DNA from: Teretinema zuelzerae
Lineage (GTDB): Bacteria; Spirochaetota; Spirochaetia; Treponematales; Treponemataceae
Assembly (NCBI RefSeq): GCF_021021555.1
Contig: NZ_JAINWA010000001.1
Span: 62,001-126,000 of the forward strand
Direction of reading: 5' to 3'
Length of the DNA stretch: 64,000 nt
The position numbers were made by a program, and so were the translations under genes. Below are positions 8,946 through 25,297 of this stretch, piece after piece. The number at the start of each line of letters is the position of its first letter. Within the stretch, counting starts at the first letter, position 1. The notes beneath the pieces are model-generated. The model searched no databases. It saw nothing but the letters and a program-made list of their open reading frames with translations, and was not told where the DNA came from.

Positions 8946-8999
8946 GGATGATAGGGGCGGTCTGCCCTTTTCTGATTGCTGGTTGAAAAACCGGTAATC

Positions 9000-9214: not shown

Positions 9215-9766
9215 TTATAAAGCAAACCAATATCTATAATCTAAACTATAACTTATATTTTTTTGACGGTGATTAATAAATCGAGCAGGATTACCACCAA
9301 CTACACTGAATTCTTCAACATCTTTGGTTACTACAGCACCCGGTAAAACAACTGCACCTTCGTGTATCGTTACTCCAGGCATTATTAATACATTTGAGAA
9401 TATCACAACATTATCCTCAATAATTACTTCTTTACCTTTTGTAGCAAAATCCGGACTATTATAATCATGTCCCAGTGTATATATCTTTGAATCATGTGAA
9501 ATATTTACATTATTACCAATAGTAATTCTTCGGCGATTATCTAAATATACACCACTATTGATTGAACAGTTTCTACCGATCTTCATTTTTCCTAGTGCAA
9601 ATATTTTTATACCATGAATCGCAGTTTGTTTTCCGGTCTTTATGCCAATACAATATAAAAGCAATCTTTTTAAAGAAAATAAAAAACAAAAACGAAAGGA
9701 AAGGTTTATAAGGGCAAGAATAATAAAATTTAGTTGCAACAAATAATTTCTCATAAAGCTATTCAA
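9215..9766 (-). CDS. Acyltransferase, left-handed beta-helix (hexapeptide) type
   Basis: The 183-residue protein has hydrophobic residues near 12-40. Hexapeptide repeats follow (IGRNCSINSGVYLDNRRRIT, then VVIFSNVLIMPGVTIHEGAVVLPG in the second half), typical of NodL/maltose O-acetyltransferase-like enzymes. The likely catalytic His is in TLGHDY. The tail VVGGNPARFI is a family hallmark. It probably O-acetylates a sugar of the surface glycan using acetyl-CoA, though serine acetyltransferase-like activity cannot be excluded. It is the last gene of the AT-rich operon and overlaps the stop of the upstream transferase gene by eight bases. Confidence 0.85.
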   Translation of the reverse strand: MNSFMRNYLLQLNFIILALINLSFRFCFLFSLKRLLLYCIGIKTGKQTAIHGIKIFALGKMKIGRNCSINSGVYLDNRRRITIGNNVNISHDSKIYTLGHDYNSPDFATKGKEVIIEDNVVIFSNVLIMPGVTIHEGAVVLPGAVVTKDVEEFSVVGGNPARFINHRQKNISYSLDYRYWFAL

Positions 9767-10484: not shown

Positions 10485-11622
10485 TTAATTTACACTCCAA
10501 TTCTTTAATAAAATCATACCACATTAGTTTCACTTTATCTTCTGTATAGTTATTTGCTTTATTATATGCCTGACACCCAAAAGAAACCCTTAAATCATAA
10601 TTATTTAGTAACAATAATACTTTGCTTATATATTCACTCTGATTTCTATTTGGTATTAGAAATCCATCAACTGAATCACGAATAATTTCAGAAGCCCCTT
10701 GTGCTGAATCATAACATATTGAAGGGAGACCGAATGAAGCAGCCTCCAGGAATGTTAAGCCAAACGATTCTGTCCATGAACATGATAGATAAAGGCTCGA
10801 GCTAAAATAATAATCACACACTTTTTGATAATCTAGATTACCAGTAAAAATAATGTGTTCTTTTAACTTATAAAAATCTACTTTTTCTAGCAACCGTTTT
10901 TTATCAGGACCATCACCAATTATTACTAATTTACATTCATTATCAATCTGTGTAATTACATAAAATAAATCAATGAGGTCATCGACACCTTTTCCTTGAA
11001 CAAGTCTACCCACAGTAAGAAATTGTTTATTAATCAAAGACGCTCTATTACTTGGAAAATAACTTAATGAATGTGGTATATATTTTATTTTGGTCTTCAA
11101 TATTATTTTAGAATAATAATCAGATAAAGATTGTGAAGCAGGCATTAAATAATCAATATTCCTACAGGCCTTTATTACTTTTTTTATGTATCGTATATCA
11201 TCATTATGATGATTATGTTCCTGTCCAATCTTAATGACCTTTTGAGGAGCAAAGCAGGAAAATAATTTTGAGAAGAAAATACGATCTGAAATGATAATAT
11301 CGGAGTCTTCCTTAATTATATATAAAATAGATTTTAAGTATTTTTGAATTAATACTTTTATATAATATAAATACAATTTCAGTAATTTAATAAAGTTTGA
11401 TAATCTAATATTATAAGATATTTCATCTTTTAATGGAGGCTCAACATTAGTAATATATTTAATAGCTATATTATTCGAGATTGTATAAAATGAACCCATT
11501 TTATTCTTATATAATACTTTAAGAGTTATTTGATGATTGCAAGATAAAATATTAGCTACATTTGCAATAACTCTTTCAGCACCACCTGCATTCATATGAA
11601 ATGTATATATTGATATTTTCAT
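10471..11622 (-). CDS. Glycosyltransferase family 4 (GT-B fold)
   Basis: The 383-residue enzyme has the N-terminal glycine-rich acceptor loop NAGGAERVIANVAN (11-24), a linker motif FLTVGRLVQGKGVDDLIDLF (about 199-218), VIIGDGPDKKRLLE near 230-243, and the donor-binding ESFGLTFLEAASFGLPSICY near 294-313 with the EX7E pattern. It is a retaining transferase that adds a sugar to the lipid-linked repeat unit on the cytoplasmic side of the membrane. Donor and acceptor cannot be read from sequence. It overlaps the next gene by 14 bases and the upstream membrane-protein gene by four. Confidence 0.87.
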   Translation of the reverse strand: MKISIYTFHMNAGGAERVIANVANILSCNHQITLKVLYKNKMGSFYTISNNIAIKYITNVEPPLKDEISYNIRLSNFIKLLKLYLYYIKVLIQKYLKSILYIIKEDSDIIISDRIFFSKLFSCFAPQKVIKIGQEHNHHNDDIRYIKKVIKACRNIDYLMPASQSLSDYYSKIILKTKIKYIPHSLSYFPSNRASLINKQFLTVGRLVQGKGVDDLIDLFYVITQIDNECKLVIIGDGPDKKRLLEKVDFYKLKEHIIFTGNLDYQKVCDYYFSSSLYLSCSWTESFGLTFLEAASFGLPSICYDSAQGASEIIRDSVDGFLIPNRNQSEYISKVLLLLNNYDLRVSFGCQAYNKANNYTEDKVKLMWYDFIKELECKLNDIL

Positions 11623-12983
11623 AAATTATAACCTAATGTTAAAAATAAACATAAAATAAGTATTGCGTAAATTATACGGGAAGGGCTAATAGTAAATAAT
11701 CCAAGCTTTATTTTACTACTAACAAAAAAATGATCCAGACCGATTACACCTAAAACAAAGGCTACAAAAGAAGTAGGATAACCAAATCTAAAATCTAAAG
11801 AAACGCCACTTATTATTAATAATAAAACATTTAAAGAATAAAAAGCAATTAATGAATAGTACTTATAATTTTTCCTTTGCAAAGAAAAAAATATATAATA
11901 GATAGCTGAAAAAGAAATAAATATTTTTATTGAACTATATGAGGCTACTAGCAAATTAACCGCTTTATTTGAATATGAAAACGCAGGAATTGGACTTATC
12001 CATGCAAAGATGAAATTCATAATATTTGATATAAATATATTTGTTCCAAAGGATTTTGATAATTGAGCATTTCTTACACCTTCAACATATGCTAACTCTG
12101 GAAGAAATCTATAAAAAAGAGACAAACCAGTAAATGCAATTATGAATGAAGATATTAATAGAATTGAAAAATATTTATAAAATAATTTTCTAAAACAAAA
12201 TAGTAATAAGAATACAAATAATACAAACAAAGCTATATATATGCGAAAAAAAAATAAAATAATGGTACTAAAAATAAATAGTAAAGTATTTTTAAAGTTG
12301 AAACGGTAAAATTGAAGATTTAATAAAGAATAAATTGATAACAATACAAAAAAAACAAAATAAGTTTCTTTTAATCCACTTACATTAAAATATACAGATG
12401 CAGCATTTACACCCCAAAAAGCACTAATAATCTGAGAAAGCTCATTAGAAGTATAGTGTTTTGATATTTTATAAATTAAAACAGACGAGAATGAATGAAA
12501 CAAAGCAGCAGTAACACATAATAAAAAAAAAGCAAATTCATTTGATATCTTTCTAATACTGAAGAAAAAATGTTGGATTATGGGGTATCCCCAATCAGAA
12601 AACGAACTTGTTCTTTTATATGATTTTAAATCATTTATAAGACCTAATATTGTATTATTTCTATTTTTTACTGCTATATTATAATAAAACAAAGAATCAT
12701 TAGCATCATAACCAAGAATGTTCTGAACGCAATACACATTGTATGCAAATAGAAGAATTGTACTTAATAGTTGAAAGCATATTATAATAGAAATTGTTTT
12801 ATAAAAAAAAGGTTTATAGAAACATATATAAAAACTAATAGTACATAATGAAAAGAATACAAGATTTATATATATAAATGAATAATCCTGAATTCGACTA
12901 AAAGTCAATAAATTTATAACTAATGATAATAAAAGATATAAGTTTAATGAGAAAAACAATGCTATATAGATCTTTCTTGGCAT
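11619..12983 (-). CDS. Multispanning membrane protein, probable O-antigen/EPS polymerase (Wzy)
   Basis: The 454-residue protein has roughly eleven to twelve hydrophobic segments and little soluble sequence. A loop after the third segment holds GYDANDSLFYYN and SDWGYPIIQHFF. A later stretch SGLKETYFVFFVLLSIYSL resembles polymerases and GT-C-like enzymes. Wzy proteins are too divergent for firm assignment; I infer the role from topology, from being the only such protein in a locus that has Wzx and Wzz, and from position between transferase genes. A GT-C glycosyltransferase is the main alternative. Very AT-rich. Confidence 0.55.
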   Translation of the reverse strand: MPRKIYIALFFSLNLYLLLSLVINLLTFSRIQDYSFIYINLVFFSLCTISFYICFYKPFFYKTISIIICFQLLSTILLFAYNVYCVQNILGYDANDSLFYYNIAVKNRNNTILGLINDLKSYKRTSSFSDWGYPIIQHFFFSIRKISNEFAFFLLCVTAALFHSFSSVLIYKISKHYTSNELSQIISAFWGVNAASVYFNVSGLKETYFVFFVLLSIYSLLNLQFYRFNFKNTLLFIFSTIILFFFRIYIALFVLFVFLLLFCFRKLFYKYFSILLISSFIIAFTGLSLFYRFLPELAYVEGVRNAQLSKSFGTNIFISNIMNFIFAWISPIPAFSYSNKAVNLLVASYSSIKIFISFSAIYYIFFSLQRKNYKYYSLIAFYSLNVLLLIISGVSLDFRFGYPTSFVAFVLGVIGLDHFFVSSKIKLGLFTISPSRIIYAILILCLFLTLGYNL

Positions 12984-13013
12984 ATTATTAAGCTTGCTTA
13001 GAGATATATCTAT

Positions 13014-14099
13014 CTAATAAAACAGATAACTAATACTATCTCGATATTTAATAATTTTTTCATTTACACTATTCCAGTTTATTTCATAATTAACGCACAC
13101 TTTAATATCATCTTGGTATTTCGAGTCTTCTAATTGAAAGAAAGATAGAAGTGTATTTAAACGTGTGTTAGCTTCTTTGAAAAAACTACTTAATGGTAAT
13201 GAAACGAATTTTTTATTGAATAATATTGCAAAAACTGTACCATGAAATGAATTTGTTATAACATATTCAGAGTTACATATCAGGCTGATCCATTCATGAA
13301 TTGAGGCTTCAATACCTTTATTCATATTGCCTTGGCTATATACATATTTAATACCCAAGTGATTCTCTGATGCAAATTGTTCAATTTGCGTTTTTGGATA
13401 ATAACATTTTGAACCAAGTAAATAAACAAATATATATTTTAAATTACTATCTTTTTTCTCTGTTATTGGATACTGATTTGAATTAATTAAGAATGTAGGA
13501 TCTAGGATCAGTTTTGCGTTATTACACCCTAAAGATCTACATAATGACAAACCTTCTATTTCTCTTACGGTCACATAATCAAATTTACTTAATAACGGTT
13601 TAATATATGCTTGCAGACTCTTACCAATTTTTTGTCGAGAAAAGCTTGCTGCAAATGATATTCGCTTTATATCAGATGCACCAAAATTTAGAAAATAAGC
13701 ATTAATTAAGTTTTCATATCTAACATAGCTATCAGGGAAATTCCAAACTTGATCACTCCCTGTGATATACATATCCGCAATCGGAGGATGTTCAACAAGT
13801 TCTTTATAGTGATGATACAATACGTTAGTAGATTTAATGAAATCACTTCGAAATGTATTAAATTGTCGATTTGTTTTCTTTTTAGAGAAAAGAAAACTTG
13901 TAATTTTAAAAAAAACTAATTTCGGGTTTAAAATCTTAAATACTCGAAATTTATCTTTTTTATAATCATTTCTTGGGTCATACCTTATCAAAAATGCATC
14001 ATGGCCACTTTCAATTAAATATTTTTGCAATGCAAAGCATTGTAGAAGTTGCCCATAATTATCTTCTGACCACCAGAATGTCATAACACCAATTTTCAT
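13014..14099 (-). CDS. Polysaccharide pyruvyl transferase family protein (WcaK/CsaB type)
   Basis: The 361-residue protein opens with MKIGVMTFWWSEDNYGQLLQ, the family's N-terminal motif. It contains DMYITGSDQVWNF (about 108-120), AASFSRQ-type residues near 149-155, and SEYVITNSFHGTVFAILFNKKF near 276-297, where the SFHG motif holds residues expected in the donor site. The family either adds pyruvate ketals from phosphoenolpyruvate to sugars or, in related members, acts as a transferase. Pyruvylation would give the glycan a negative charge. The gene lies 13 bases downstream of the TPP-enzyme gene in the AT-rich operon. Confidence 0.85.
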   Translation of the reverse strand: MKIGVMTFWWSEDNYGQLLQCFALQKYLIESGHDAFLIRYDPRNDYKKDKFRVFKILNPKLVFFKITSFLFSKKKTNRQFNTFRSDFIKSTNVLYHHYKELVEHPPIADMYITGSDQVWNFPDSYVRYENLINAYFLNFGASDIKRISFAASFSRQKIGKSLQAYIKPLLSKFDYVTVREIEGLSLCRSLGCNNAKLILDPTFLINSNQYPITEKKDSNLKYIFVYLLGSKCYYPKTQIEQFASENHLGIKYVYSQGNMNKGIEASIHEWISLICNSEYVITNSFHGTVFAILFNKKFVSLPLSSFFKEANTRLNTLLSFFQLEDSKYQDDIKVCVNYEINWNSVNEKIIKYRDSISYLFY

Positions 14100-14112
14100 A
14101 GTATTCCTGTAA

Positions 14113-15855
14113 TTATTTATCGATTATTTTCTTAATAGTATTGATCGTATTTTGATTGAATACTTTTTTAGCGAATTGTTTTGCCTTACCCTGAATATTG
14201 GTTTCAAGTGACATCATTATTTCCAAGGCATCACTTTCATCTTGATTGGTAGTAAAGACCTCAAGTATCATTGATCGTTTTATTTCAGGTGAAGTAAATG
14301 TATCAATCACAGATGCAAATTCTTCTTTATTAGAGGCTTGTAGATATAGATATCCAAGATCTTCTGCAAAATGCTTTACCAAAACATTTGATTTATTACC
14401 AAAGTGTCCAGCGGCGGCAATATATTTATCTGTATCATCTGCAAATTGATTTCCTGCGTGATTGAATTGTCTAAATTCCGTGCCTTTGCCATTATTTACC
14501 AGTAGAATCCTCACATTATTACCAACATGTCTATTCCCAAGCGAATTTAAATCATAAAAAAAAGCAAGGTCACCAATAACGCAATAATAAAGTCGATTTT
14601 GATTAACTAATGAAGCTCCTAATAAAGATGACATACCGCCATCAATTCCGAAACCTCCTACATTAGAAGAAGATGTTACAGAATCTGGCAATTCAAAAAA
14701 ATTCCAAGAACGCAAACTGTTAAGTATGCCAAAATGAATCGTTGAATTCTTTGGTATTATATGGGCAGTTTCTGAGGCGATCCATATATTAGAGAACGGA
14801 AGATCCGGAATCTTACTATTAGTTAAAGCTATTTGATTTAAACATGCTTCGTAATATGTTTTCTTATTATTTATTTGACCTTCTTCAGTATAGTATTTAA
14901 AAAAACTTATTTCAGGTATTTCAAATACATTTTGCAACCTATGCATCGTGTCTCGTATCTCACCATCTTCACTTACACGCCAAACTACTTTTCCGGAAAA
15001 ACCTAATGTATAATAATCTCCAGTTATTTCCCCAATATGAATTAGTAAATCTGGTCGATTATTTAAATCAATAAAATTTTGCTGAGCAGCAACCAAACAA
15101 AATAGAACTCTATATTTCCCATAGTAATTGCTCGAATGATCACAAAATACTACTGCATCATTCGCAGCACAAAAATTATCGAGAACTTTTGTTTCTTTCT
15201 CGGAAAAAACTTTATGCGATCCAACAAACACGCCGATTTTTCCTTTAGGCAAAGGAGGCAATTCATTAGATGCAGTATAGCGACGAATTACACGAACTTC
15301 GGGCAATTCTTTGACATCATAATTCTTGCTGTAAGTAGTAGGTAAGTTTATATGGACCGGACCACCACCGTTTCTTGATAATTCTAGAATTGCCTTGTTT
15401 ATTTTTATTTCACAATCCCAATTATCATCATCATCCTTCACTATTGGTAAATGCACACTAAGTTTTACAGAATCTTTAGGCAATTGAGTTCTATCAATAA
15501 CTTGCGCTATATGATGACCAATTCTAGAATAAAGTTGGGTAGAGGTAATAGCTAAAATAGGCAGCTTGCGATAATACGCTTCAGTCAAAGCGGGCAAATA
15601 ATTTCTTGATGCAGTAGCCCCAGTACAACTCAATACAACAGGTTCATCTGATTCAGCCGCTAACCCACATGCCATGTATGCTGCAGATCTTTCATCAACA
15701 CATGAAAATATAGTAAAAAAAGGATCATACTGAATACTTCCAATAAAAGAAACATTTGTAGCACCTGGAGAGGCGATTACTTTTCTTATACCATGTGCTT
15801 TCAATAAAGAAATTAGAACCTGAATAGCTTTTTCATCTGTATATCCATGTGTCAT
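14113..15855 (-). CDS. MenD-like thiamine pyrophosphate-dependent enzyme in the glycan locus
   Basis: The protein (580 residues from the preferred start) has the three-domain layout of TPP decarboxylases. The catalytic glutamate that activates the cofactor is in VDERSAAYMACG and falls at residue 55. The C-terminal Mg/TPP motif is GDLAFFYDLNSL ... NNGKG, the form typical of MenD rather than acetolactate synthase (GDG type). I place the start at 15855 because GAGGG lies six bases before it; an earlier ATG at 15879 has no ribosome binding site and would overlap the upstream gene. No other menaquinone genes are here, so the substrate is more likely a sugar-pathway intermediate. Substrate unknown. 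Confidence 0.8.
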   Translation of the reverse strand: MTHGYTDEKAIQVLISLLKAHGIRKVIASPGATNVSFIGSIQYDPFFTIFSCVDERSAAYMACGLAAESDEPVVLSCTGATASRNYLPALTEAYYRKLPILAITSTQLYSRIGHHIAQVIDRTQLPKDSVKLSVHLPIVKDDDDNWDCEIKINKAILELSRNGGGPVHINLPTTYSKNYDVKELPEVRVIRRYTASNELPPLPKGKIGVFVGSHKVFSEKETKVLDNFCAANDAVVFCDHSSNYYGKYRVLFCLVAAQQNFIDLNNRPDLLIHIGEITGDYYTLGFSGKVVWRVSEDGEIRDTMHRLQNVFEIPEISFFKYYTEEGQINNKKTYYEACLNQIALTNSKIPDLPFSNIWIASETAHIIPKNSTIHFGILNSLRSWNFFELPDSVTSSSNVGGFGIDGGMSSLLGASLVNQNRLYYCVIGDLAFFYDLNSLGNRHVGNNVRILLVNNGKGTEFRQFNHAGNQFADDTDKYIAAAGHFGNKSNVLVKHFAEDLGYLYLQASNKEEFASVIDTFTSPEIKRSMILEVFTTNQDESDALEIMMSLETNIQGKAKQFAKKVFNQNTINTIKKIIDK

Positions 15856-15868
15856 TTTTTCCCTCACA

Positions 15869-16930
15869 TCATAAACCAATTCTACGAATTGTATACTTAA
15901 ATATATTTTTCAGACTTCGAATATCCGAAAAATTCCAATACTCCTTTGAAATTCTGTCTTTCGAGCCCTCAGAACCATAACTTATCAAAGATTCTCCGAT
16001 AGGTAAATTGCTTAAAAAATCTGATAAACATGTATTTAAACCCTCTGCAGGATGAATAAATCCACTAGTATCAATATATTTTTTAATTTTTTCATTAGAA
16101 AATAATCGATCATACATTCTATCATAATGAAGTTGATAAAACCCTTTATGCGCCTTTTCAAATTCTTTTATTCCGCATAAAAATATTTCGGGATCTTTAC
16201 TAGTTAAATGTAGTATAGTTTGTTTATAGCAATTCCAGACATCCGACCAAGTTATTGATATATCATTTGTAATATGAAAGGCATTTGATAAAGCGGATTC
16301 TTGTCCTAAAATTGAAAAAACACCTCGGGCTACATCATAACCATGTGTTAAAGTTGTCTTCTTCTCAAATAAATCAACGGGAAATACGACTTTATGTCCA
16401 TATAAAGCCCTGTAAAGCCAACCTTCTTTTTCTAATAAGCCAAATTGTAATCGATTATTGCTATACGTTATGTATGGGCGTACTATCGTCCAATTAATTC
16501 GTTTATTGTTGAACAAAATATCTTCTTGACGAGCTTTTATCAATGCATATTCTTCAGTTGATAGATATTTTTTATCTTCACATACATCCAGAAGCCTGGG
16601 AGAATTTTCTGTTAACACTACATTGGATTTGGCATACACACGAGAACTACTAATATAAACGTACTGATTGGTGTTTTGTAAAAGAAGATTAATCTTTTTA
16701 GAAAAGTCTATTGTCGAGTAAACCATGAAATCAACTATCATATCAAATTTTTGATTAAGTAAGCTGATCAAGAACTCATCTTCTTGGGCATTTCCTTGTA
16801 TAAACTTAACGGTACCAAATGACTCTCTACTTTTTCTAGAAGTAACAAAAGTTTCAATATTACTCTGAGATAAAATATTGACTAAATGTTGTCCAATTGC
16901 ACCGGTACCGCCTAATATCAGTGCTTTCAA
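15869..16930 (-). CDS. NAD-dependent epimerase/dehydratase (extended SDR)
   Basis: The 353-residue protein begins MKALILGGTGAIGQHLVNIL, a Rossmann start with GGTGAIG at residues 8-14. It has YISSSRVYAKS near 90-100, and EEYALIKARQE near 126-136, where Tyr and Lys form the YxxxK catalytic pair with the right spacing. The C-terminal half departs from well-known sugar epimerases, so the substrate cannot be named. It probably modifies a nucleotide sugar for the glycan. It overlaps the flippase gene by four bases, and its product may act with the MenD-like enzyme encoded next. Confidence 0.78.
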   Translation of the reverse strand: MKALILGGTGAIGQHLVNILSQSNIETFVTSRKSRESFGTVKFIQGNAQEDEFLISLLNQKFDMIVDFMVYSTIDFSKKINLLLQNTNQYVYISSSRVYAKSNVVLTENSPRLLDVCEDKKYLSTEEYALIKARQEDILFNNKRINWTIVRPYITYSNNRLQFGLLEKEGWLYRALYGHKVVFPVDLFEKKTTLTHGYDVARGVFSILGQESALSNAFHITNDISITWSDVWNCYKQTILHLTSKDPEIFLCGIKEFEKAHKGFYQLHYDRMYDRLFSNEKIKKYIDTSGFIHPAEGLNTCLSDFLSNLPIGESLISYGSEGSKDRISKEYWNFSDIRSLKNIFKYTIRRIGL

Positions 16931-18450
16931 GTTATTTTTGCCTTAATTTTGTGAATAAGAACTAATTTCTGATCTCTTGTAAGTCCTACTAAAAAGAAAA
17001 GAATTAATGAAGACAAAGAAGTAATAATAGTAATCAAAAGCAATGAAGAGAAATTTTGGGGGAAAATCCTATTGATAAAGTATGCCGGCAAACCAGAAAA
17101 CAAAACAACAACTAATACAGGAATTAGTACTTCGATCATAAATTTTCTTATTGGGAGAGTTATTAGTAAATTCACTATGTATAACCGAACGATAAACATA
17201 ATTAGATTTATTAGGATGGCACTATAAAAAACTATTTCAGCTGTTCCATCAAAGTATTTTATCCAAATAAACGATACAATAAAAATTAACAATTGAAGAG
17301 ACCCAAGAACGAGCTCATATTCTTTCATTTTTCCTGGCGCTCTGGCTGCAGTAGTGATTGGCAAACTGATTGAATTAATCAACACCTCAATAACAGAAAG
17401 AATAGTAAAAAACACGACGTACTCCGGCAGTCGATTGAGCCAGATTGTTAATACATATTCCATTCTTAAACATAATGGAAGAGCAAAAAACCACATTAAG
17501 ATAAATGTAATTTTACATCCGTTAAATATTAGTGAATACATTTTTGTTTTATTATCAAGAGCATATTCTTTAACAATTGGTGCATATAAACTTGTATTGA
17601 AATTTGCAGAAAAAACTGTTAATGCGTAGCTTACTTGAGAAGAAATTGCCCGAGATGCCACAATTATTGGATTAAAAAACTGATTTATAAGAATAGTGAT
17701 AGCTTGATTTCGTGCAACTGTACTAAATGCACCAAATATGGACCACCCTGTAAAATTTGATATCTCTTTAAATAATTCCTTATCCCAACCAAGTTTAAAT
17801 TTACACTCTACGTAATGTTTTTTACAATATCCCCGATAAATTGAAGTATTTATGAATCCAACAACAAAAAGAAGTACACCATACATACTTAATTTATCAA
17901 AAGGTAGTTTCTTTAATATAAAAACGATGAATAATTTTAAAGAGACTTCAATAATACTTACATATGCATATACATTCATATTTTCATGAGCGATTATACT
18001 TGACATGTACGGCGTTGTGATCAAAGTTATCGCAAAACTTAATATACTAAAGTGATAGACCCATTTCGCAGCTAATATTCTATTATCTGGTATTACAAGT
18101 TTATTATATATAAACCATAATCCAAAAGATTCAGCTACAACTACGATCACAAATATAAGAAGAATATAAATAGTGAGAGTAACACTAAATGTTTTCTCTA
18201 GCTGTTCGTAGTTTTGCCTACCTATATTAAAACTAAAATATCTTTGGCTCGCAGTCGCCATTGCTCCGCTTAAAAAGCTGAACATAGTAACAACGCCTGC
18301 TACAACATTATAAATACCATAATCTTCCGCACCCAATACCTCGAGAACAACGCGAACTGTATAGAGACTCACCAACATGATGAGAATTTGCCGAAAATAC
18401 AACATGAGTGTGTTCTTCGCGATACGTTTACTATTGGACACTTCGGACAT
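16927..18450 (-). CDS. Wzx-like polysaccharide flippase (MOP superfamily)
   Basis: The 507-residue protein has about twelve to fourteen hydrophobic segments. It starts with the family's characteristic N-terminus (KRIAKNTLMLYFRQILIMLV; GAEDYGIYNVVAG near 40-52). Wzx proteins move undecaprenyl-linked repeat units across the inner membrane before Wzy polymerisation. It is the first gene of the AT-rich operon. No strong ribosome binding site precedes the ATG. The sequence changes abruptly from AT-rich to GC-rich about 120 bases upstream, which suggests a recombination boundary. Confidence 0.88.
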   Translation of the reverse strand: MSEVSNSKRIAKNTLMLYFRQILIMLVSLYTVRVVLEVLGAEDYGIYNVVAGVVTMFSFLSGAMATASQRYFSFNIGRQNYEQLEKTFSVTLTIYILLIFVIVVVAESFGLWFIYNKLVIPDNRILAAKWVYHFSILSFAITLITTPYMSSIIAHENMNVYAYVSIIEVSLKLFIVFILKKLPFDKLSMYGVLLFVVGFINTSIYRGYCKKHYVECKFKLGWDKELFKEISNFTGWSIFGAFSTVARNQAITILINQFFNPIIVASRAISSQVSYALTVFSANFNTSLYAPIVKEYALDNKTKMYSLIFNGCKITFILMWFFALPLCLRMEYVLTIWLNRLPEYVVFFTILSVIEVLINSISLPITTAARAPGKMKEYELVLGSLQLLIFIVSFIWIKYFDGTAEIVFYSAILINLIMFIVRLYIVNLLITLPIRKFMIEVLIPVLVVVLFSGLPAYFINRIFPQNFSSLLLITIITSLSSLILFFLVGLTRDQKLVLIHKIKAKIT

Positions 18451-19155
18451 TTAAGCCTGCTTTTTTATGATTGGATTATGAGTAATATGAATAGAAAGGA
18501 TTCAACCCAGGAACATTATCAATTTTGCATATATCTAGAGGTATAAATAAAGATAGGGAGATTATGCCCTCAAAGGGGTGGCGGAAAAGCCGAGGTGCGG
18601 CTTTGGAGCCAGGGGGAACCGCGGGAAGTTCGCCGCCGTAACCGGTGCAAATTACCCTGCAGAGCCCCGGAAGAGGTGGTCCCCCTCCCCTGAAAAGAAC
18701 AAAAAGGCCTTTTTCGCTCGCTTTCTAAAAAGAAAAACGGGCAAAAAAGAAAGCCTGCGCATAGGCGGGGTGAGGAACAAATTCCTCCGGGTTTTTTGAC
18801 CGGGCCGCCGAAACAGGCTCCGGGAAAACCAGGGGGATGTAAAAGGACGCTTCCAGGATAACAAAACAATCAACGCCGATGTTACACTATTTTTACCCTC
18901 CGGAGCAATAGAATCGGAGATACCTGGAACGGGTATTGAGTAAAATCGGATACCCGCAAAACAACCGCTTTTCTCCCCAAATTCCGTAAACAACACCAAA
19001 AAATCCCGTGTCATACTATAGCGGACACCCGTTGTACGGAAAATACCTACACAGAAGATGCCTCTTGTAAGGAAAAACCCTACAAACGGATGGGGCCAAA
19101 ACAGGAAATTTCTCCTGAATTAATGGCCGAACACAAAAAAACAAAGGAGTTTTGT
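18451..19155. other. 705-base gene-free stretch with GC-rich structured core
   Basis: The first 110 bases are AT-rich and belong to the upstream region of the flippase gene. From about 18570 to 18860 the sequence is GC-rich and full of short complementary blocks, for example AAAGCCGAGGTGCGGCTTT near 18586-18604, GGCCTTTTT beside AAAAAGGCC, and GGAACAAATTCC. Frames open on both strands but none has a ribosome binding site or family-like residues. From 18890 to 19150 it becomes AT-richer and leads into the LuxR-type gene. It could be a structured leader RNA for the downstream cassette, a dispersed repeat, or a decayed gene; I matched no known riboswitch. Confidence 0.4.
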
Positions 19156-19827
19156 ATGACAAAAATGGTGATGGTCGGCTTTACCGGCATGCGGCGGTTG
19201 GTAACGGAACGGTTTCTTGATTCGGTGTTCAAAGCCGATTCGATTGAAAACATCGAAACGCTGGAAGAGTTCTTCGCTTCTCCCCGGGGAGAAAACATCG
19301 ACTGGATCGTATACTCAATCTTTTGCCTCGGGATAGAGATAGAGGAACACCTTGCGCGGCTGATCGAACTCCATCCTGAAAGCCGCCATGCGTGCTACTC
19401 CGAGTTTCCCGTATCCGCCTCCGTGGCGCTTAGATGCAAAAAAAGCGGGGCTTCGTACCTTCTGTGCAACCTGAACACTCAAACAGAACTTGAGCGCCTC
19501 TGTGCGAGCGTCGCCCTTGGCCGCCCCTGGTACCCGGAACACATCTGTGCTCTCGGCCAACGCGCGGAAAGGGACATTCTTGTGCGTTCAAACGGCCTCT
19601 CCGCGCGCCAACACACCGTATTACGGTGCCATTTTTTGGGAAAAACGCGCAAGGAAACCGGCGGGGAACTGGGCATAACGGAGAAAACAGTCTCCACCCA
19701 CCGCGCCCGCTGCAACGAAAAAATGAAAACCGAAAGCCAGGCAGGCCTCTTTGCCGCGGCCGTTATGATGAATCTCGTTTCGCCGTTCGAGGTAATCCGG
19801 AGCCCCGAAACGGAAGAAATCGGATAA
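19156..19827 (+). CDS. LuxR-type HTH regulator heading the cassette
   Basis: The start is set by AAAGGAG six bases before the ATG at 19156; a longer frame to 19090 has no such site. The 223-residue protein has an N-terminal part of about 140 residues that is not a clear receiver domain, although MTKMVMVGFTGMRRLV could begin an alpha/beta fold. A C-terminal LuxR/FixJ helix-turn-helix follows: LSARQHTVLRCHFLGKTRKE, then LGITEKTVSTHRARCNEKM. The recognition helix is the TVSTHRARCNEK part. It is encoded 14 bases before the next gene and probably regulates the cassette that it leads. The input signal is unknown. Confidence 0.72.
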   Translation: MTKMVMVGFTGMRRLVTERFLDSVFKADSIENIETLEEFFASPRGENIDWIVYSIFCLGIEIEEHLARLIELHPESRHACYSEFPVSASVALRCKKSGASYLLCNLNTQTELERLCASVALGRPWYPEHICALGQRAERDILVRSNGLSARQHTVLRCHFLGKTRKETGGELGITEKTVSTHRARCNEKMKTESQAGLFAAAVMMNLVSPFEVIRSPETEEIG

Positions 19828-19841
19828 AAAAGGAGACGTAC

Positions 19842-20069
19842 ATGAGAAATGAAAGACCAGCCCTGATCGGCGGTCCGCTCGCGGAACTGCGCGAGTTTAT
19901 GGGAGAGATGCGGGAGTTCAAGCGCCAAACGCTTGCCCGCCTCTCATCGATCGACCACAGCCGCGAACGAGCCGGCGGTTACCGCGTATCGGTCGTGGCC
20001 GTATGCATCGCCGCCATCGCCTGCGCGGGGAATATCGCGAACCTGATCGTCGGGCAGGGAGGCCGCTAG
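19842..20069 (+). CDS. Small single-span membrane protein, 75 aa
   Basis: The start is the ATG at 19842, seven bases after AAAGGAG. The product has a polar, charged N-terminal region (ELREFMGEMREFKRQT looks helical and amphipathic) and one membrane segment at about residues 48-70 (VSVVAVCIAAIACAGNIANL). Its stop overlaps the GTG start of the NlpC/P60 gene (TAGTG). Size, coiled N-terminus and position beside a cell-wall hydrolase resemble phage holin or spanin-like accessory proteins, but the family is not recognised. Confidence 0.6.
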   Translation: MRNERPALIGGPLAELREFMGEMREFKRQTLARLSSIDHSRERAGGYRVSVVAVCIAAIACAGNIANLIVGQGGR

Positions 20070-20629
20070 TGAGCGCGCTTAACTGGCACAAGCTTGCAGA
20101 AACCGGCAAGAAGCGGTTCGAACAAAGCGATGAAAAGGAACGATGGGAGGCCGCCCTGCTCGGCTTTGTCGGAACCCCCTACCGTTGGGGCAGCGAAGTG
20201 CCCGAAGGAGCGGATTGCTCAGGAGCCGTGTGCTTCGCGCTCGCCGCAGCCACGGGACTCGCCCGGCGCATGACGGCAGAAAGCCTCTACCGCACCGTGT
20301 TTACCGTGCAGGGGCCCGCGATCCGCGGAATCTCGGCCCTCTTCTTCATCTCCCGCAAGGAGAAACATGAAGGAGGGATACTCAAACCCGCTGGCGGCAT
20401 ACACCACGTTGCCGGCATCGTCGCCGAAGGAATCGCCGTGAACATGAGCGAGCCTGAAGGACGCCTCCGCGAAATCAGCGATCTCAAGCGTGTATACGAC
20501 CGCTACGGCTACGACATGGTCGCGCGGGGACTGAGCCGCCGGGCATGGGAGCGCTTCGCGTATCCCGTACAGCTCGCAAAGGAATTCGACCCCGAATTCT
20601 ACCCTTACTTTGAAGGAGAGCCGGCATGA
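20069..20629 (+). CDS. NlpC/P60-family cysteine peptidase / cell-wall hydrolase
   Basis: Translation probably begins at GTG 20069, seven bases after GGGAGG, giving 186 residues. The NlpC/P60 core is clear: GTPYRWGSEVPEGADCSGAV holds the catalytic Cys at residue 50, and GGIHHVAGIVAE supplies the His near 112-113. The family cleaves D-gamma-glutamyl-diaminopimelate or similar bonds in peptidoglycan stem peptides. There is no signal peptide, so release would need a holin-like partner or lysis, as with phage endolysins. Small membrane-protein genes lie on both sides, each overlapping this gene. A non-lytic amidase-like role is possible. Confidence 0.82.
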   Translation: MSALNWHKLAETGKKRFEQSDEKERWEAALLGFVGTPYRWGSEVPEGADCSGAVCFALAAATGLARRMTAESLYRTVFTVQGPAIRGISALFFISRKEKHEGGILKPAGGIHHVAGIVAEGIAVNMSEPEGRLREISDLKRVYDRYGYDMVARGLSRRAWERFAYPVQLAKEFDPEFYPYFEGEPA

Positions 20630-20847
20630 GGGAGTCCTATATCGGCGAAAGCGTGGAGAATATCGCGAAGCGGGCGCTCGCCCTCCCCGCGAAACTCATC
20701 GGTTTCAAGCCCTGCTGCCTGTACCTGGCGACATGGCTTCTTGTTACCGGACGCATCGGAGAATGGGCATGGTTCGCCGTACTGGTAACCATACTTTTCG
20801 GGATCGTGGGCCTGAAGGCCCTCGGTCAAATCCACAAAACTATCTAA
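20626..20847 (+). CDS. Small membrane protein, 73 aa, holin-like
   Basis: The ATG overlaps the stop of the NlpC/P60 gene (ATGA). GAAGGAGAG lies just upstream. The product has an amphipathic N-terminal region (SVENIAKRALALPAKLIG) and two closely spaced hydrophobic stretches at about residues 28-42 and 46-64. Its size and position after a hydrolase gene recall phage holins; no family match can be claimed. It ends 11 bases before the HU-HIG-like gene. Confidence 0.55.
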   Translation: MRESYIGESVENIAKRALALPAKLIGFKPCCLYLATWLLVTGRIGEWAWFAVLVTILFGIVGLKALGQIHKTI

Positions 20848-20857
20848 AGGAGTTTCT

Positions 20858-21562
20858 ATGCTGCAAATCGCTTCCGTAACCAATTACCTGAAAACCTGCC
20901 TCCAGCCCTACCTGGTGCGCAGTGCCAATTCGGACATCGTGGAGGTGGACGAACTCGTTGACATCATGGCCGCAGGCCGCACCACCCTCTCCAAGCCGGA
21001 CATTATCGGCTGCCTCCACCTCCTGCAGGAAGAGCTCATCAAGCTCGTGTCCGACGGGAAACACGTAAAAACCCCGGTGGGATCATTCTACCTCAGCGCG
21101 AGCGGACGGCTTGAAACCAAAGCCCAGGCATTTACCCCCGGCATCGGCGATCTCGATCACGAAATAACGCTGCATTTTCGCACCAATAAAACCGTAGAAG
21201 CGAAGATGAAAAGCCAGGCACGCTGGGAACGGGTGGAAACCTTCGACGTAACAACCGCCGTAATCGACAGCCTCTCCGTAGTCGCCCGGGAACCGGGAGA
21301 AAGCGCCCACGCGGGAGACACCCTCCGCGTCGTCGGCCGCCGCCTCAAATTCGACTCCGCAGACCCTGAATGCGGCCTCTTTATCGAAAACGAGAGCTCG
21401 AGCCTGCGCTGCCCCGTCTACCCGGACATTGCCCCGAGCAAACTCATCGCCGTGCTGCCCGCAGATCTCCCGAGCGGCACCTGGAAAGTAGTCGCCGTTA
21501 CCAAGCCAAACGGGAAAAAAAGTAAAAGCGGCTACTACGAAAAAACCATTGAAGTAGCGTAA
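20858..21562 (+). CDS. HU-HIG-like protein: HU-type DNA-binding domain plus Ig-like (DUF4469) domain
   Basis: The 234-residue protein begins with a region resembling the HU/IHF fold variant of DUF4469 proteins (residues about 1-125). The DIVEVDELVDIMAAGRTTLS helix pair is followed by GKHVKTPVGSFYLSASG, which occupies the place of the HU arm region. The C-terminal half (about 135-234) is beta-rich and Ig-like (AGDTLRVVGRRLKF, LPSGTWKVVAVTKPNGKKSK). Such HU-Ig combinations are known in Bacteroidetes and spirochaetes with little functional work. It ends the cassette and is followed by a strong terminator. DNA binding is inferred from the fold only. Confidence 0.65.
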   Translation: MLQIASVTNYLKTCLQPYLVRSANSDIVEVDELVDIMAAGRTTLSKPDIIGCLHLLQEELIKLVSDGKHVKTPVGSFYLSASGRLETKAQAFTPGIGDLDHEITLHFRTNKTVEAKMKSQARWERVETFDVTTAVIDSLSVVAREPGESAHAGDTLRVVGRRLKFDSADPECGLFIENESSSLRCPVYPDIAPSKLIAVLPADLPSGTWKVVAVTKPNGKKSKSGYYEKTIEVA

Positions 21563-21669
21563 AAAGACCACTGGACTTTAAGCCGCGGACCACTGATAAA
21601 CGAATCGTTTATCAGTGGTCTTTTTTTATTTGTCCAGTGGAAAACGGATCGATGTGCACTGGTCTTTTT
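21561..21669 (+). terminator. Cassette terminator with competing hairpins
   Basis: The core is a 16-base perfect stem (21588-21603 with 21605-21620) followed by seven T, a strong rho-independent terminator just past the HU-HIG-like gene. Around it, 21568-21576 (CCACTGGAC) is complementary to 21632-21640 (GTCCAGTGG), enclosing the core hairpin. Another CACTGGTC plus T-run stands at 21657-21671. The first copy AAAAAGACCACTG could also pair with 21613-21625. Confidence 0.8.
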
Positions 21670-21822
21670 TTCATTTTGCAGCGGGAAAAAAGAGGATGTT
21701 ATTCATTCGGGTTATAAAAAAATCAAATTTTTTGAATTATATATTTATCAAACCAGGGAGGCACATTCTTACTCTGTACAGGACCGGAAAAATCCGCAAT
21801 CTTTTAATCGAACAAGCCATTA

Positions 21823-22236: not shown

Positions 22237-22557
22237 CTAACCCTTAGTCGATAAAACGTTCTTTCCCGGCTTGCCCTGCGACTCCATCATTTCTTTCCGC
22301 AATAGCTCGTTCATGAGCGTCTGGTACCCCTTCCCGAAGCTCTTGAGCCAGGCGATCACATCGGCATCGATACGGGCGGTTATCTGCTCTTTTCGCGGCT
22401 TGTAGAGGCTATGAAAGGGAATCGCTCGGGCGAAGTCGTCCTTAGTCCATTCGGGGATATCGCTGGTATCGACCTCGGAATCGGGAAGATTCGCGAGCGC
22501 CTCGATCCGCTTCTTTGCCGCTTCGTCCATGGGCTTAAAACCAGTTACCTTCTTCAT
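22237..22557 (-). CDS. BrnA-type antitoxin
   Basis: The 106-residue protein matches the BrnA pattern: a flexible, acidic N-terminal part (SEVDTSDIPEWTKDDFARAI) followed by KPRKEQITARIDADVIAWLK and YQTLMNELLRKEM, a ribbon-helix-helix-like DNA-binding end. BrnA neutralises the RelE-like ribonuclease BrnT and represses the operon. The start codon lies inside the end of the brnT frame, 20 bases before its stop, the usual brnTA overlap, and GGAGG lies a few bases upstream. The partner toxin is frameshifted here, so this antitoxin is effectively an orphan. Confidence 0.85.
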   Translation of the reverse strand: MKKVTGFKPMDEAAKKRIEALANLPDSEVDTSDIPEWTKDDFARAIPFHSLYKPRKEQITARIDADVIAWLKSFGKGYQTLMNELLRKEMMESQGKPGKNVLSTKG

Positions 22558-22815
22558 AGAGCCTCCTTTCCGCCTGAGTTGCCTTTCGGGCGGAGTTTAT
22601 CCGTATCGTTTCTTCGGTTTCGCCTTTCCGGATTGTAAAGACGACCAACGCCATCAACACGCCGTTTATCCGCCCGATGATTTGCTGGCGATCCTCGCTC
22701 TCGAAGTCATCGCGACGGGTAACCGCGAATGGATCAGCGAAGACGTATAGCCTGAATCCAGGGGAAGCGCCAGACCGGCAGTGTTGCGCACCTTAACCGC
22801 GACGTTACAATTCAT
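22535..22815 (-). pseudogene. BrnT-type ribonuclease toxin, frameshifted and N-terminally damaged
   Basis: Residues FADPFAVTRRDDFESEDRQQ, then RINGVLMALVVFTIRKG and INSARKATQAERRLYEEGNW, read from about 22760 to the TAA at 22535, are the BrnT core and C-terminus, including the R-x-I-x-SAR-x-A motif. Upstream the frame breaks. The matching N-terminal residues (NVAVKVRNTAGLALPLDSGY) are in another frame, and the usual beginning with the KHG-x-S/F motif is degenerate. The best start, ATG 22815, has no ribosome binding site. The ribonuclease is therefore probably inactive, leaving brnA alone. Confidence 0.75.
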
Positions 22816-23129
22816 GTATGAAAAAGTAAAACCTCTTTCGGTCCGTTATTTTTTGGATTCCGGGGGCGAACTTTTATTTCCATATCAAGATCTAATTGCG
22901 ATAAATACTTAATAAGAGTAGAAAGTTTGATGTCGGTACGGCCTTCTATGCGAGACACAGCGGGCTGCGAAAAACCTTTAATCTCTGATTGTTTTACGTT
23001 ATATTTCTCACGGAGTTCGGCAAGATTTATAAGTAAAAGTTCCTTCTCGTATATTTCGTTCGAACGGGAGATGGACTCCTCAGTCATTGTACTTTCCATC
23101 GCTTTCATCGCGTCTTTGACAATCGCCAT
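22812..23129 (-). CDS. HigA-type antitoxin, XRE-family HTH
   Basis: The 105-residue protein carries an XRE helix-turn-helix at about residues 36-75 (LAELREKYNVKQSEIKGFSQ followed by PAVSRIEGRTDIKLSTLIKY). An N-terminal helix and a short C-terminal strand (LDMEIKVRP) complete the usual antitoxin layout. It is encoded 15 bases after a HigB-like toxin gene, in the order toxin then antitoxin, typical of higBA. It probably represses the promoter at 23358-23386 by binding the repeats there. The GGAGGAT just before the ATG at 23129 is a good ribosome binding site. Confidence 0.85.
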   Translation of the reverse strand: MAIVKDAMKAMESTMTEESISRSNEIYEKELLLINLAELREKYNVKQSEIKGFSQPAVSRIEGRTDIKLSTLIKYLSQLDLDMEIKVRPRNPKNNGPKEVLLFHT

Positions 23130-23144
23130 ATCATCCTCCTATAA

Positions 23145-23327
23145 TCAGCTTGAAGCCAGATATTGCTCGTATAACGTTTCAGCTTCACTAATCAGCTTTT
23201 TGTAGAACCGTTTGTCTTCTGAACCGCCTTTTACATCGCCGGTTAGCAGGAGACATACGCGCTCTCCGGTAAAAAGAAAAGCAATTCGATATTTTCTACC
23301 TTGAGCCTGCACACGTAATTCCTTCAA
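23145..23327 (-). pseudogene. HigB/RelE-type toxin, N-terminally truncated
   Basis: The 60 residues starting KELRVQAQGRKYRIAFLFTG and ending FYKKLISEAETLYEQYLASS match the C-terminal half of phage-derived Gp49-like/HigB toxins, which are normally about 100-115 residues. The codon at the apparent start is TTG within an upstream-continuing KGSKYSNLKELR, so the missing N-terminus has been lost rather than mis-started. In-frame sequence reaches back to a TAA about 75 bases further, and that interval contains a promoter instead of toxin sequence. It is probably inactive, but it is still transcribed ahead of the antitoxin. Confidence 0.7.
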
Positions 23328-23357
23328 ATTCGAATACTTGCTACCCTTAAAATATCG

Positions 23358-23386
23358 ATTATAACCTGCAGGTAATATTACGTCAA
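23358..23386 (-). promoter_or_regulatory. Promoter of the higBA-like operon
   Basis: On the minus strand TTGACG (23381-23386) and TATAAT (23358-23363) stand exactly 17 bases apart. This is an almost perfect sigma-70-like promoter directed into the truncated toxin and its antitoxin. Confidence 0.7.
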
Positions 23387-23396
23387 GGTAATATTA
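23370..23396. repeat. Direct repeats over the -35 element, probable antitoxin operator
   Basis: The 11-base sequence AGGTAATATTA occurs at 23370-23380 and again at 23386-23396, flanking and overlapping the -35 hexamer. A related inverted block (TTATAACCT) lies over the -10. This placement suits repression by the HigA-like protein. Confidence 0.55.
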
Positions 23397-23597
23397 TCGT
23401 GTATAATGAAATGTGCAATGAGTTCCCATGATTTTGCTGATTGTGGTTAACCAACATTAGGATGTTCCCGCCCTTTTTGTCACCCAAAAAGCGGAAACGC
23501 CTGACCGATGCTTACACACAGCGTGTAAGCTGATAGTCGCACAATAATCGAAGGCAATACCAGACACTGAAACAGTGAACTAGATTTTTACACCAGC

Positions 23598-23718
23598 TTA
23601 CTCTATTCCTTGTTCACGAAGAAGGTATTTTAATTCATTCAAAGCTGAAATCTCGTTCGGAACTCGCCTGAGTCTCCTCCCTCATGCTCCCGATCTCGAC
23701 CTCCGCATTATTCACCAT
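23598..23718 (-). pseudogene. Possible frameshifted small coding remnant
   Basis: From ATG 23718 one frame gives MVNNAEVEIGSMREETQ. A shift of one base near 23672 then gives RRVPNEISALNELKYLLREQ and GIE before TAA at 23598. The second part has the look of a natural C-terminal helix (SALNELKYLLREQG). No family is recognised, and the joining frameshift is my inference. Confidence 0.2.
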
Positions 23719-23845
23719 TTAAAACCCTTAGTAACACTGTTTATTGATATCTAATATCTGTATTGATAAAAGCCGACGCACACCCTTAAATATGGTGATT
23801 TTGTCGGGCTAGAGGTTAATCCGGTCAGAACGAACCAATATCGTA

Positions 23846-23864
23846 TTTAGAGGTGCCCATAATA
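23846..23864 (+). repeat. 19-base repeat, copy 2
   Basis: Identical to 9093-9111. It lies 15 bases upstream of the first mazEF operator repeat, at the end of a stretch of remnants. Confidence 0.6.
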
Positions 23865-23878
23865 GAAATCATTGGTAT

Positions 23879-23918
23879 GTATATACAATGTAGATTTGAC
23901 AAAGGTATATACAAAGTA
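23879..23918. repeat. Direct repeats upstream of mazEF, probable operator
   Basis: GTATATACAATGTA (23879-23892) and GTATATACAAAGTA (23905-23918) differ by one base and lie 26 bases apart. The second fills the spacer of the promoter. This fits autoregulation by a MazE dimer or MazEF complex. Confidence 0.55.
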
Positions 23919-23924
23919 TATATT
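23896..23924 (+). promoter_or_regulatory. mazEF promoter
   Basis: TTGACA (23896-23901) and TATATT (23919-23924) are separated by 17 bases, followed by the ribosome binding site GGAGG ahead of the ATG at 23941. This is a strong sigma-70-like promoter. Confidence 0.7.
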
Positions 23925-23940
23925 ATTTCTGGAGGTTAGC

Positions 23941-24174
23941 ATGCAAACTGTAGTCCAGAAGTGGGGAAATAGCCTTGGAATCAGAATTCCTGCTGTATTT
24001 GCAAGAGAATTCGAGCTTAAAAATGGAAGTTCAGTTGATATTATCGAAGACCAGGGGAGACTGGTTATCGTTCCCCAAAAACAATCGTTAGATGAATTAC
24101 TCTCACTGGTAACAAAAGAGAATATGCATTCTTCGATTGAAACCGGCGGTTCTGTAGGGAAAGAAGAATGGTAA
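23941..24174 (+). CDS. mazE: MazE-type antitoxin, AbrB/SpoVT fold
   Basis: The 77-residue protein opens MQTVVQKWGNSLGIRIPAVF, the signature of the MazE/AbrB swapped-hairpin DNA-binding domain, with GSSVDIIEDQGRLVIVPQ completing it by about residue 48. The acidic C-terminal tail would wrap the toxin. The start at 23941 is set by CTGGAGG seven bases upstream. The stop overlaps the toxin start by seven bases. It is likely to repress its own promoter through the GTATATACA repeats. Confidence 0.9.
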   Translation: MQTVVQKWGNSLGIRIPAVFAREFELKNGSSVDIIEDQGRLVIVPQKQSLDELLSLVTKENMHSSIETGGSVGKEEW

Positions 24175-24503
24175 AAAACTATACTCCGGAAAAGGGCGAT
24201 ATTGTTTGGCTAGATTATACTCCTCAATCGGGGCATGAACAAAGAGGACGAAGACCTGCAATAGTGTTATCAAAAAAGGCATATAACCAAAAAATCGGGT
24301 TAGCATTATTTTGTCCAATCACGAGCAAAGAAAAAGGGTATCCGTTTGAGGTGAAAATTGTTGGAAAAAAAATAACTGGATGCGTATTAAGCGATCAAAT
24401 AAAAAGCCTGGATTGGACAGAAAGGAATATTGAATATATTGAAGAAAGTAATAAAGATATTATCGAAGAAATTATCGAGAAAATTGAGTTGCTGATAGAG
24501 TAA
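24168..24503 (+). CDS. mazF: MazF-type endoribonuclease toxin (PemK/MazF family)
   Basis: The 111-residue protein shows the family core: GDIVWLDYTPQSGHEQRGRR followed by PAIVLSKKAYN, then ALFCPITSKEKGYPFEV, and GCVLSDQIKSLDW. The RGRRP arginine and the Thr/Ser of PITS are expected in the active site of these sequence-specific mRNA interferases. Length is normal and no damage is visible, so this pair, with its intact antitoxin and promoter, is probably functional. It is more AT-rich than the core genes. Confidence 0.92.
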   Translation: MVKNYTPEKGDIVWLDYTPQSGHEQRGRRPAIVLSKKAYNQKIGLALFCPITSKEKGYPFEVKIVGKKITGCVLSDQIKSLDWTERNIEYIEESNKDIIEEIIEKIELLIE

Positions 24504-24533
24504 AAAAAAATTGCGCAGAATGTCTGCTCAAGA

Positions 24534-25004
24534 TCAAAACCGTTCTGCTACGAAGGCGGCGGCGCGGCGGCGGATATCTGCGAGGAGGGAGAGCTTTCCG
24601 AATACAATATTCAGGGCCAGGACGGTTTTATCGACCTCGTTCGAGTACTCGTGAGCGATTTCGTTTCGTAATTCCCGTAGGGAAAGCCATGTATCTGAGT
24701 CGACTATCTGAAGCTCCTCCATACGGTGGAGAACATCCAGAAAGGTTCTTCCTTTCACTTCTTCCCTGCCGAGCTTGAGAATTCCGGGAAAAACCTTTTC
24801 GCCGAGCGTGTCCTGCAGCTTTGAAAAACGATACACCATTTGGTCTACAAAGCTCGAATCAACCTCGTCGAGGCTGCCGAATGATTCTACCGTGAGAGGA
24901 AACCGATGAGACAAGCGTTCGGCGGCTGTGAGCATACGGTTCTCGTGTTTTTCGCATTCGGCTAGTTTTTCCAGCACAGCTTGAAGCATCACCTGGTCCG
25001 TCAT
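24534..25004 (-). CDS. HEPN-domain protein (HepT-like) of an MNT/HEPN pair
   Basis: The 156-residue all-helical protein contains SLRELRNEIAHEYSNEVDK near residues 106-124, where RNEIAH is the R-x4-6-H motif of HEPN ribonucleases. In HepT/MntA modules the HEPN protein is the toxic RNase and the partner nucleotidyltransferase adenylylates it. The gene overlaps the upstream MNT gene by four bases, the usual arrangement. Both the arginine and histidine are present, so it could be active. Confidence 0.8.
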   Translation of the reverse strand: MTDQVMLQAVLEKLAECEKHENRMLTAAERLSHRFPLTVESFGSLDEVDSSFVDQMVYRFSKLQDTLGEKVFPGILKLGREEVKGRTFLDVLHRMEELQIVDSDTWLSLRELRNEIAHEYSNEVDKTVLALNIVFGKLSLLADIRRRAAAFVAERF

Positions 25005-25297
25005 AAGCGTATTCCTTTTATTCGAGCTTCGCGCTCGATCGCGCGGCTTTGATCCCCGGCAAGAACTACATCGATCTTCTGGTCGCCGATCCGTTGTTTG
25101 AGCGAAACCAGAAACTGCACCTTTCGTTGGAACAACGCCTCTGCTGATTCTCCAGCCTGCGGCACGATAAAAAGATCAATATCGCCGCCGGAAGCCGAAT
25201 CGTTAACACGGCTGCCGAACAAATACACCTCGTCCGTACCAAAGTACGTAACGCACGTTTCCTTTATAGCCTGTCGGTCGTTTTCTGAAAGACGCAT
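25001..25297 (-). CDS. MNT-type minimal nucleotidyltransferase antitoxin (MntA-like)
   Basis: The 98-residue protein has the nucleotidyltransferase signature YLFGSRVNDSASGGDIDLFI at about residues 25-44: GSR followed by DxD, the Mg2+-binding pair. KIDVVL near 75-80 provides a third acidic residue. These minimal enzymes transfer AMP to the partner HEPN toxin. The pair is transcribed away from the MscS-type channel gene, and its start is about 105 bases from that gene's start. Confidence 0.85.
   Translation of the reverse strand: MRLSENDRQAIKETCVTYFGTDEVYLFGSRVNDSASGGDIDLFIVPQAGESAEALFQRKVQFLVSLKQRIGDQKIDVVLAGDQSRAIEREARIKGIRL

Follow-up and report, generated by a model that had tools for sequence, protein, structure and literature searches.

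Some bacteria release cytoplasmic proteins by lysing a subpopulation of their cells, a strategy called type 10 secretion and described in Yersinia entomophaga and Serratia marcescens (PMC10847048; PMC10101115). YenLC/ALC of Y. entomophaga, together with RoeA, forms one such system (PMC10101115; PMC10847048) and ChiWXYZ of S. marcescens, together with ChiR, another; in both, a phage-type holin and endolysin are encoded outside a phage, beside one regulator. The locus described here lies within a stretch of 64,000 nucleotides from the spirochaete Teretinema zuelzerae (contig NZ_JAINWA010000001.1, positions 62,001 to 126,000, forward strand), hereafter the window, whose own numbering is used for its features. 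It consists of five plus-strand genes encoding, in this order, a LuxR-type regulator, a small membrane protein (sp75), an NlpC/P60 peptidase (NlpC), a second small membrane protein (sp73) and an HU-HIG protein. On balance, the locus probably descends from a Treponema prophage and now stands alone: the phage LuxR gene stands before the phage lysis genes, the virion, packaging and integration genes have been lost, and a chromosomal HU-HIG gene comes last.

That LuxR, sp75, NlpC and sp73 derive from a phage is close to certain. All four are members of one widespread family of Treponema prophages, which bears out the resemblance to phage lysis genes that the initial annotation had pointed out. The gene order of this family is integrase, TerL, portal, LuxR, protease, capsid, head-tail genes, sp75, NlpC, sp73, a spanin-like pair and D5 primase; TerL, portal, the LuxR helix-turn-helix (HTH) domain, protease, capsid and integrase are identified by PHROGs or Pfam. 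NlpC was searched for in 99 relatives and 17 of their loci were then inspected. All 17 have sp73 next to NlpC, and 16 also have sp75, in the order sp75-NlpC-sp73, the phage homologues of sp75 directly preceding NlpC. Most of the inspected loci share a larger block, made up of the head-tail adaptor, tail terminator, C4, C3, sp75, NlpC, sp73, further structural genes and D5 primase, where C4 and C3 are putative structural proteins of the phage family and C3 is a putative tail gene. The initial annotation had stated that its proposal would fail if these genes occurred in intact prophages that also encode tail and terminase proteins; this is found for four of the five genes, and HU-HIG is the exception.

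Within the phages, LuxR has the portal gene on one side and the gene of the head maturation protease on the other, with none between, and lies upstream of NlpC and on the same strand, at a distance of ~7–8 kb in compact phages (e.g., Treponema sp. C6A8 and related contigs) and ~21 kb in split ones. In the compact phages, a small protein occupies the sp73 position and is followed by an overlapping pair, consisting of a transmembrane (TM)-anchored protein and a signal-peptide protein with a C-terminal TM segment; a spanin-like overlapping pair is also found in the larger phages. From this layout the segment reads as a lysis module, with sp75 as putative accessory, NlpC as candidate endolysin, a holin-like sp73 and the spanin-like pair. 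Matches to NlpC come from IMG/VR and genome contigs only, with none in annotated phage records.

The regulator of the window points to the same source. Its best matches among the 99 relatives are the phage LuxRs encoded between portal and protease, one of them in the prophage of its own genome. In the LuxR tree, a clade with support of 97/97 unites the window protein, the two other stand-alone copies introduced below and the phages of its own genus, and the LuxRs of the compact phages fall outside it; identity is low (18–25%), the branching order inside the clade is not firm, and the window copy is not joined to the other two. Pfam recognizes a GerE domain (44.1 bits), and profile matches to NarL/FixJ-type response regulators in the PDB (EvgA, VraR and NarL) run along most of the protein. 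The receiver-like half is degenerate, since the Pfam scan detects no receiver domain. A dedicated regulator had been taken as an argument for domestication; because LuxR belongs to the phage head operon, between portal and protease, its presence reflects inheritance and gives no evidence of a host-made regulator. Apart from the lysis genes themselves, LuxR is the one phage gene that the three stand-alone loci have retained, which suggests that it may regulate lysis. As a separate observation, a NarL/LuxR-type regulator with a degenerate receiver-like half is present between portal and protease throughout the phage family (e.g., L111:6203-6868, L094:1041-1706, L115:3937-4596, L118:9515-10168 and L227:2272-2928), an unusual place for such a gene.

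Pfam and PHROGs scans of the five window proteins name the LuxR HTH, NlpC/P60 and the HU/DUF4469 protein. NlpC scores 24.1 bits against NLPC_P60 (cut-off 23), and residues C50, H113 and N125 are invariant in an alignment of 28 sequences that includes the window protein. Its AlphaFold2 (AF2) model has a mean pLDDT (predicted local distance difference test) of 91, and the best PDB matches of the model are NlpC/P60 cell-wall hydrolases (7cfl, LytE and MepS); the protein is accordingly modelled as an NlpC/P60 fold with a Cys-His-polar catalytic site. The absence of a signal peptide, as first annotated, stands: no hydrophobic signal is detected in NlpC, as expected for a holin-dependent endolysin. 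The two small proteins and the spanin-like proteins have no significant family match in scans that included Pfam and PHROGs. sp75 contains one hydrophobic span, which is C-terminal, and resembles XhlA in layout only. sp73 is the most conserved protein of the set (47–64% identical to its homologues), has one clear hydrophobic span (within residues ~43–70) and a weaker one (within ~17–42), and gives a helical AF2 model. Its position, size and hydrophobicity suggest a holin.

The surroundings of the operon are not those of a prophage. As the initial annotation noted, capsid, tail and integrase genes are absent; in the 64 kb no terminase or any other phage homologue was found beyond the cassette, and a DNA-level search of the gaps upstream and downstream for traces of deleted phage genes yielded no convincing match. 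In the window LuxR adjoins the lysis genes, the phage genes that separate them in prophages being gone. Cassettes were sought in 274 genomes of the family and 394 of the order (overlapping sets), in IMG/VR and in GTDB contigs. The 85 distinct NlpC relatives comprise 76 with the phage gene C3 directly upstream, six with neither C3 nor LuxR (contig ends or divergent loci) and three with LuxR; LuxR lies within 2.5 kb of NlpC only in these three, namely the window, G012 (an uncultured Spirochaetes bin) and G031. The last two are two species of one other genus. In G012 and G031 a stand-alone LuxR accompanies sp75-NlpC-sp73 and a spanin-like gene; LuxR is divergent to them and HU-HIG is missing. The G012 locus is flanked by ABC-transporter genes and other genes of the chromosome, on a contig of 718 kb. 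LuxR, sp75, NlpC, sp73 and the spanin-like gene are open in both genomes, and NG86 dN/dS between them is 0.22, 0.23, 0.28, 0.08 and 0.35, respectively, values that are rough because dS (1.4–2.6) is near saturation; YN00 gave no dN/dS for most pairs, probably due to saturation. Five open genes with dN/dS well below 1 argue that the stand-alone unit has been retained in these two species. The NlpC tree lends no support to a single domesticated lineage uniting the window copy with those of G012 and G031, and this idea was rejected.

In the mechanism proposed for the window, LuxR would sense a cue via its degenerate receiver-like domain and turn the operon on. sp73, aided by sp75, would breach the inner membrane, the NlpC/P60 peptidase, which has no leader, would cross through the lesions and cut the peptidoglycan, and the cell would lyse or leak its contents. 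A lysis role of the unit is likely. Domestication of the window copy is plausible, because virion genes are lost, open reading frames (ORFs) and active site are intact, and an equivalent locus persists, with the low dN/dS given above, in two species from a different genus; the unit is perhaps kept for regulated lysis or release, resembling a type 10 secretion system. Whether the window copy functions at present is roughly an even question: ORFs and active site that stay intact at high divergence speak for it, and the single occurrence and the missing spanins speak against it.

Several observations weigh against a retained lysis unit. sp73 matches no holin family and its AF2 model is of low confidence. 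The branches that lead to the window NlpC and LuxR are long (1.42 and 1.75 changes/site, respectively), and neither protein is firmly grouped with its counterparts in G012 and G031. The cassette is unique in its genus, with none stand-alone in 11 other genomes (some incomplete), and selection on the window copy is therefore not measurable. The spanin-like pair is missing in the window, where HU-HIG directly follows sp73, while G012 and G031 keep at least one such gene; this leaves rupture of the outer membrane unexplained. In G031, NlpC (L119:3553-4209) is an open frame in which the catalytic Cys and His are replaced, so that not every stand-alone locus has retained an active enzyme. The other genes of the G031 cassette stay conserved despite this loss.

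The strongest alternative, which we nevertheless consider unlikely, is that of a dead prophage remnant, in which LuxR and the lysis genes were left by a large deletion and have no present function. It draws on the single copy in the genus, the lack of spanin-like genes, the long branches of NlpC and LuxR, and the related split prophage that the same genome carries elsewhere. Against it speak the ORFs, all intact and with ribosome sites and overlaps, the clean junction of LuxR to the lysis genes with a terminator, and the independent stand-alone loci in another genus; the active-site residues have also survived in an NlpC that shares no more than ~43% identity with any relative. Should the locus be only a remnant, the phage family would still be a useful catalogue of a lysis module in Treponema, the small membrane proteins of which match no known family.

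Phage peptidoglycan hydrolases may also belong to the tail, as do lambda gpK and the tail peptidases of gene transfer agents (GTAs). NlpC could be such an enzyme rather than an endolysin, and the small proteins tail accessories: the best PHROG match of NlpC is a minor tail protein, its structural neighbours in BFVD include several tail proteins, and it comes after the putative tail gene C3 in the phages. This is improbable given the lysis-cassette layout, in which two small membrane proteins flank NlpC and are followed by the overlapping spanin-like pair. In addition, no other hydrolase was found among the phage proteins scanned with Pfam and PHROGs (not every ORF was scanned), and three genomes retain an NlpC gene that no tail genes accompany.

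The prophage of T. zuelzerae itself (G000) is split into a head block (TerL to tail terminator) and a tail/lysis/primase block ~16 kb apart (G000:C1:545206-577823; L032, L092 and L112). The genes between the blocks are of chromosomal type and, with names given partly by eye, include a transglutaminase-like protein, a ZntA-type ATPase, a PpiC-like protein, CDF, a kinase/regulator and an HflKC-like protein. Homologous host genes lie between the same two blocks in G001 (L111 with L039), in an orientation inverted relative to the phage, and the head block of G002 (L114) is beside the same host genes. The split prophage is possibly a GTA-like split element at the level of the genus. A further copy of the phage family, in G072 (L035 and L088), contains ~20 kb of non-phage-looking genes between capsid and head-tail adaptor, among them DnaE-like, Y-family polymerase-like, DUF72-like and large helicase-like genes, named by reading the sequences. 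Some GTAs are known to have lysis genes unlinked to the rest, and the shared host genes parting head and tail blocks in G000 and G001 would accord with a split prophage that makes particles and a window cassette that helps to release them. Such an auxiliary role is very improbable: the tail block has its own sp75-NlpC-sp73, there is no evidence of particles, and the window cassette lies ~470 kb away from the split prophage and is absent from the other genus members examined.

HU-HIG has a different history from the other four genes. The protein exceeds the Pfam cut-offs of PF14848 (HU-DNA_bdg, 50.1 bits), PF14734 (DUF4469, 40.7 bits) and PF18291 (HU-HIG, 26.7 bits), and its fusion of an HU-like to an Ig-like domain fits HU-HIG proteins (PF18291/PF14848 with PF14734). 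It has no match in 50,697 annotated phage records, on which ground a phage origin was rejected; for a pattern scan of IMG/VR, the HU-HIG alignment is too divergent. It accompanies none of the other cassettes found, and its close relatives occur alone. Surface-glycan genes are present within ~10 kb of five of the nine closest relatives and in two of 20 control stretches, small numbers obtained with a marker set partly drawn from the HU-HIG flanks themselves (self-matches excluded). In the window, a surface-glycan biosynthesis island (8500–18450) ends just upstream of the cassette; it was probably acquired, since its G+C content is 22–35%, against ~55% in much of the window. In the simplest interpretation, HU-HIG is part of this glycan neighbourhood, or came separately, and then became the last gene of the operon; it was probably joined to the phage-derived operon in the window. 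The initial annotation proposed a possible uncharacterised five-gene envelope or lysis system, and the operon-like packing of all five genes would suit one envelope or secretion system with HU-HIG as dedicated DNA-binding subunit, a view that can be given hardly any credence, as the five-gene set, HU-HIG included, is present in no other genome searched and HU-HIG, of other origin, is found apart from the cassette, often near surface-glycan loci.

The initial description of five tightly packed plus-strand genes with a strong terminator holds. The five ORFs are real, every gap is at most 14 bases, and the operon is closed by an inverted repeat (Table 1). sp75 and NlpC overlap by one base (TAGTG), the start codon of NlpC being GTG; NlpC and sp73 overlap at ATGA; and HU-HIG starts 10 bases past sp73, preceded by AAAGGAG. 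The first ATG of LuxR is at 19090. The ATG at 19156 has the better ribosome site (AAAGGAG just upstream) and gives a protein of 223 residues that matches the length of its relatives, and it is the likely start. A structured RNA leader, also part of the initial annotation, was rejected: the 300-nt G+C-rich leader folds with a z of −1.74 against dinucleotide shuffles (13 of 200 fold equally well), has no Rfam match and occurs once in the genome. Long overlapping ORFs within 18570–19014 are unsupported. Right after the cassette (22237–25297) are likely toxin-antitoxin pairs, recognized by eye from translations, with candidates of the RelE/Xre type, the MazEF type (23872–24503) and the HEPN/MNT type (24534–25297).

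Table 1. Features of the phage-derived operon and its flanks (window numbering).
Feature	Position	Strand	Description
Upstream non-coding stretch	18555–19155	+	G+C-rich; not significantly structured
Possible short terminator-like hairpin	18772–18787		Within the upstream non-coding stretch
LuxR/NarL-type regulator	19156–19827	+	Degenerate receiver-like N-terminus and GerE HTH
sp75	19842–20069	+	Coiled, charged N-terminus and C-terminal TM
NlpC/P60 peptidase, predicted endolysin	20069–20629	+	No signal peptide; C50, H113 and N125 intact
sp73, predicted holin	20626–20847	+	Small, hydrophobic
HU-HIG protein	20858–21562	+	HU-like domain and DUF4469 Ig-like domain
Intrinsic terminator	21587–21621	+	16-bp perfect inverted repeat, T-run; closes the operon
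Degenerate second terminator copy	21634–21677		Downstream of 21587–21621

For HU-HIG, the closest comparison is the HU gene PG0121 of Porphyromonas gingivalis, which lies beside the K-antigen capsule operon and whose effect on capsule transcription has been shown by mutation (PMC3969353). Both are HU-family genes at a surface-glycan locus, the window case being known from sequence alone. PG0121 is described as HU-like, unlike the window protein with its HU and Ig-like domains, and to our knowledge contains no Ig-like DUF4469 domain.

For the other four genes, the nearest relative is the lysis module of the Treponema prophages (T. bryantii NK4A124 and B25, Treponema sp. C6A8, G072/G092), which shares with the window homologues or counterparts of sp75-NlpC-sp73 in the same order and on one strand and, wherever the sequence of the locus extends far enough, an upstream LuxR homologue in the same orientation. 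In the prophages, however, protease, capsid and tail genes separate LuxR from the lysis genes and the spanin-like pair follows, whereas the window has no virion, terminase or integrase surroundings and no spanin-like pair, and HU-HIG is added.

With the type 10 systems the window shares a predicted endolysin, a location outside a prophage and an adjacent regulator; the holin would be sp73, which has no family match. The regulators differ, RoeA being PhoB-like, ChiR LysR-type and that of the window a phage LuxR. Type 10 systems also have spanins and known cargo, and the window cassette has no spanin and no known cargo. The locus is not filed as a type 10 system because the spanin pair, a defining feature, is missing; the version in G012 and G031, with its spanin-like gene, is a better candidate. 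If retained for use, the window cassette would be a type 10-like lysis/release unit in spirochaetes, of which a limited literature search met no report, with the phage's own regulator kept beside the lysis genes. A broader proposal, possible and somewhat short of probable, is that spirochaetes of the Treponema family have repeatedly domesticated the phage's minimal unit of LuxR, endolysin and holin as a host-controlled lysis/release system, which would be the spirochaete equivalent of type 10 secretion; the phage LuxR would then be the switch for lysis. The cassette offers a test of what the phage LuxR between portal and protease controls.

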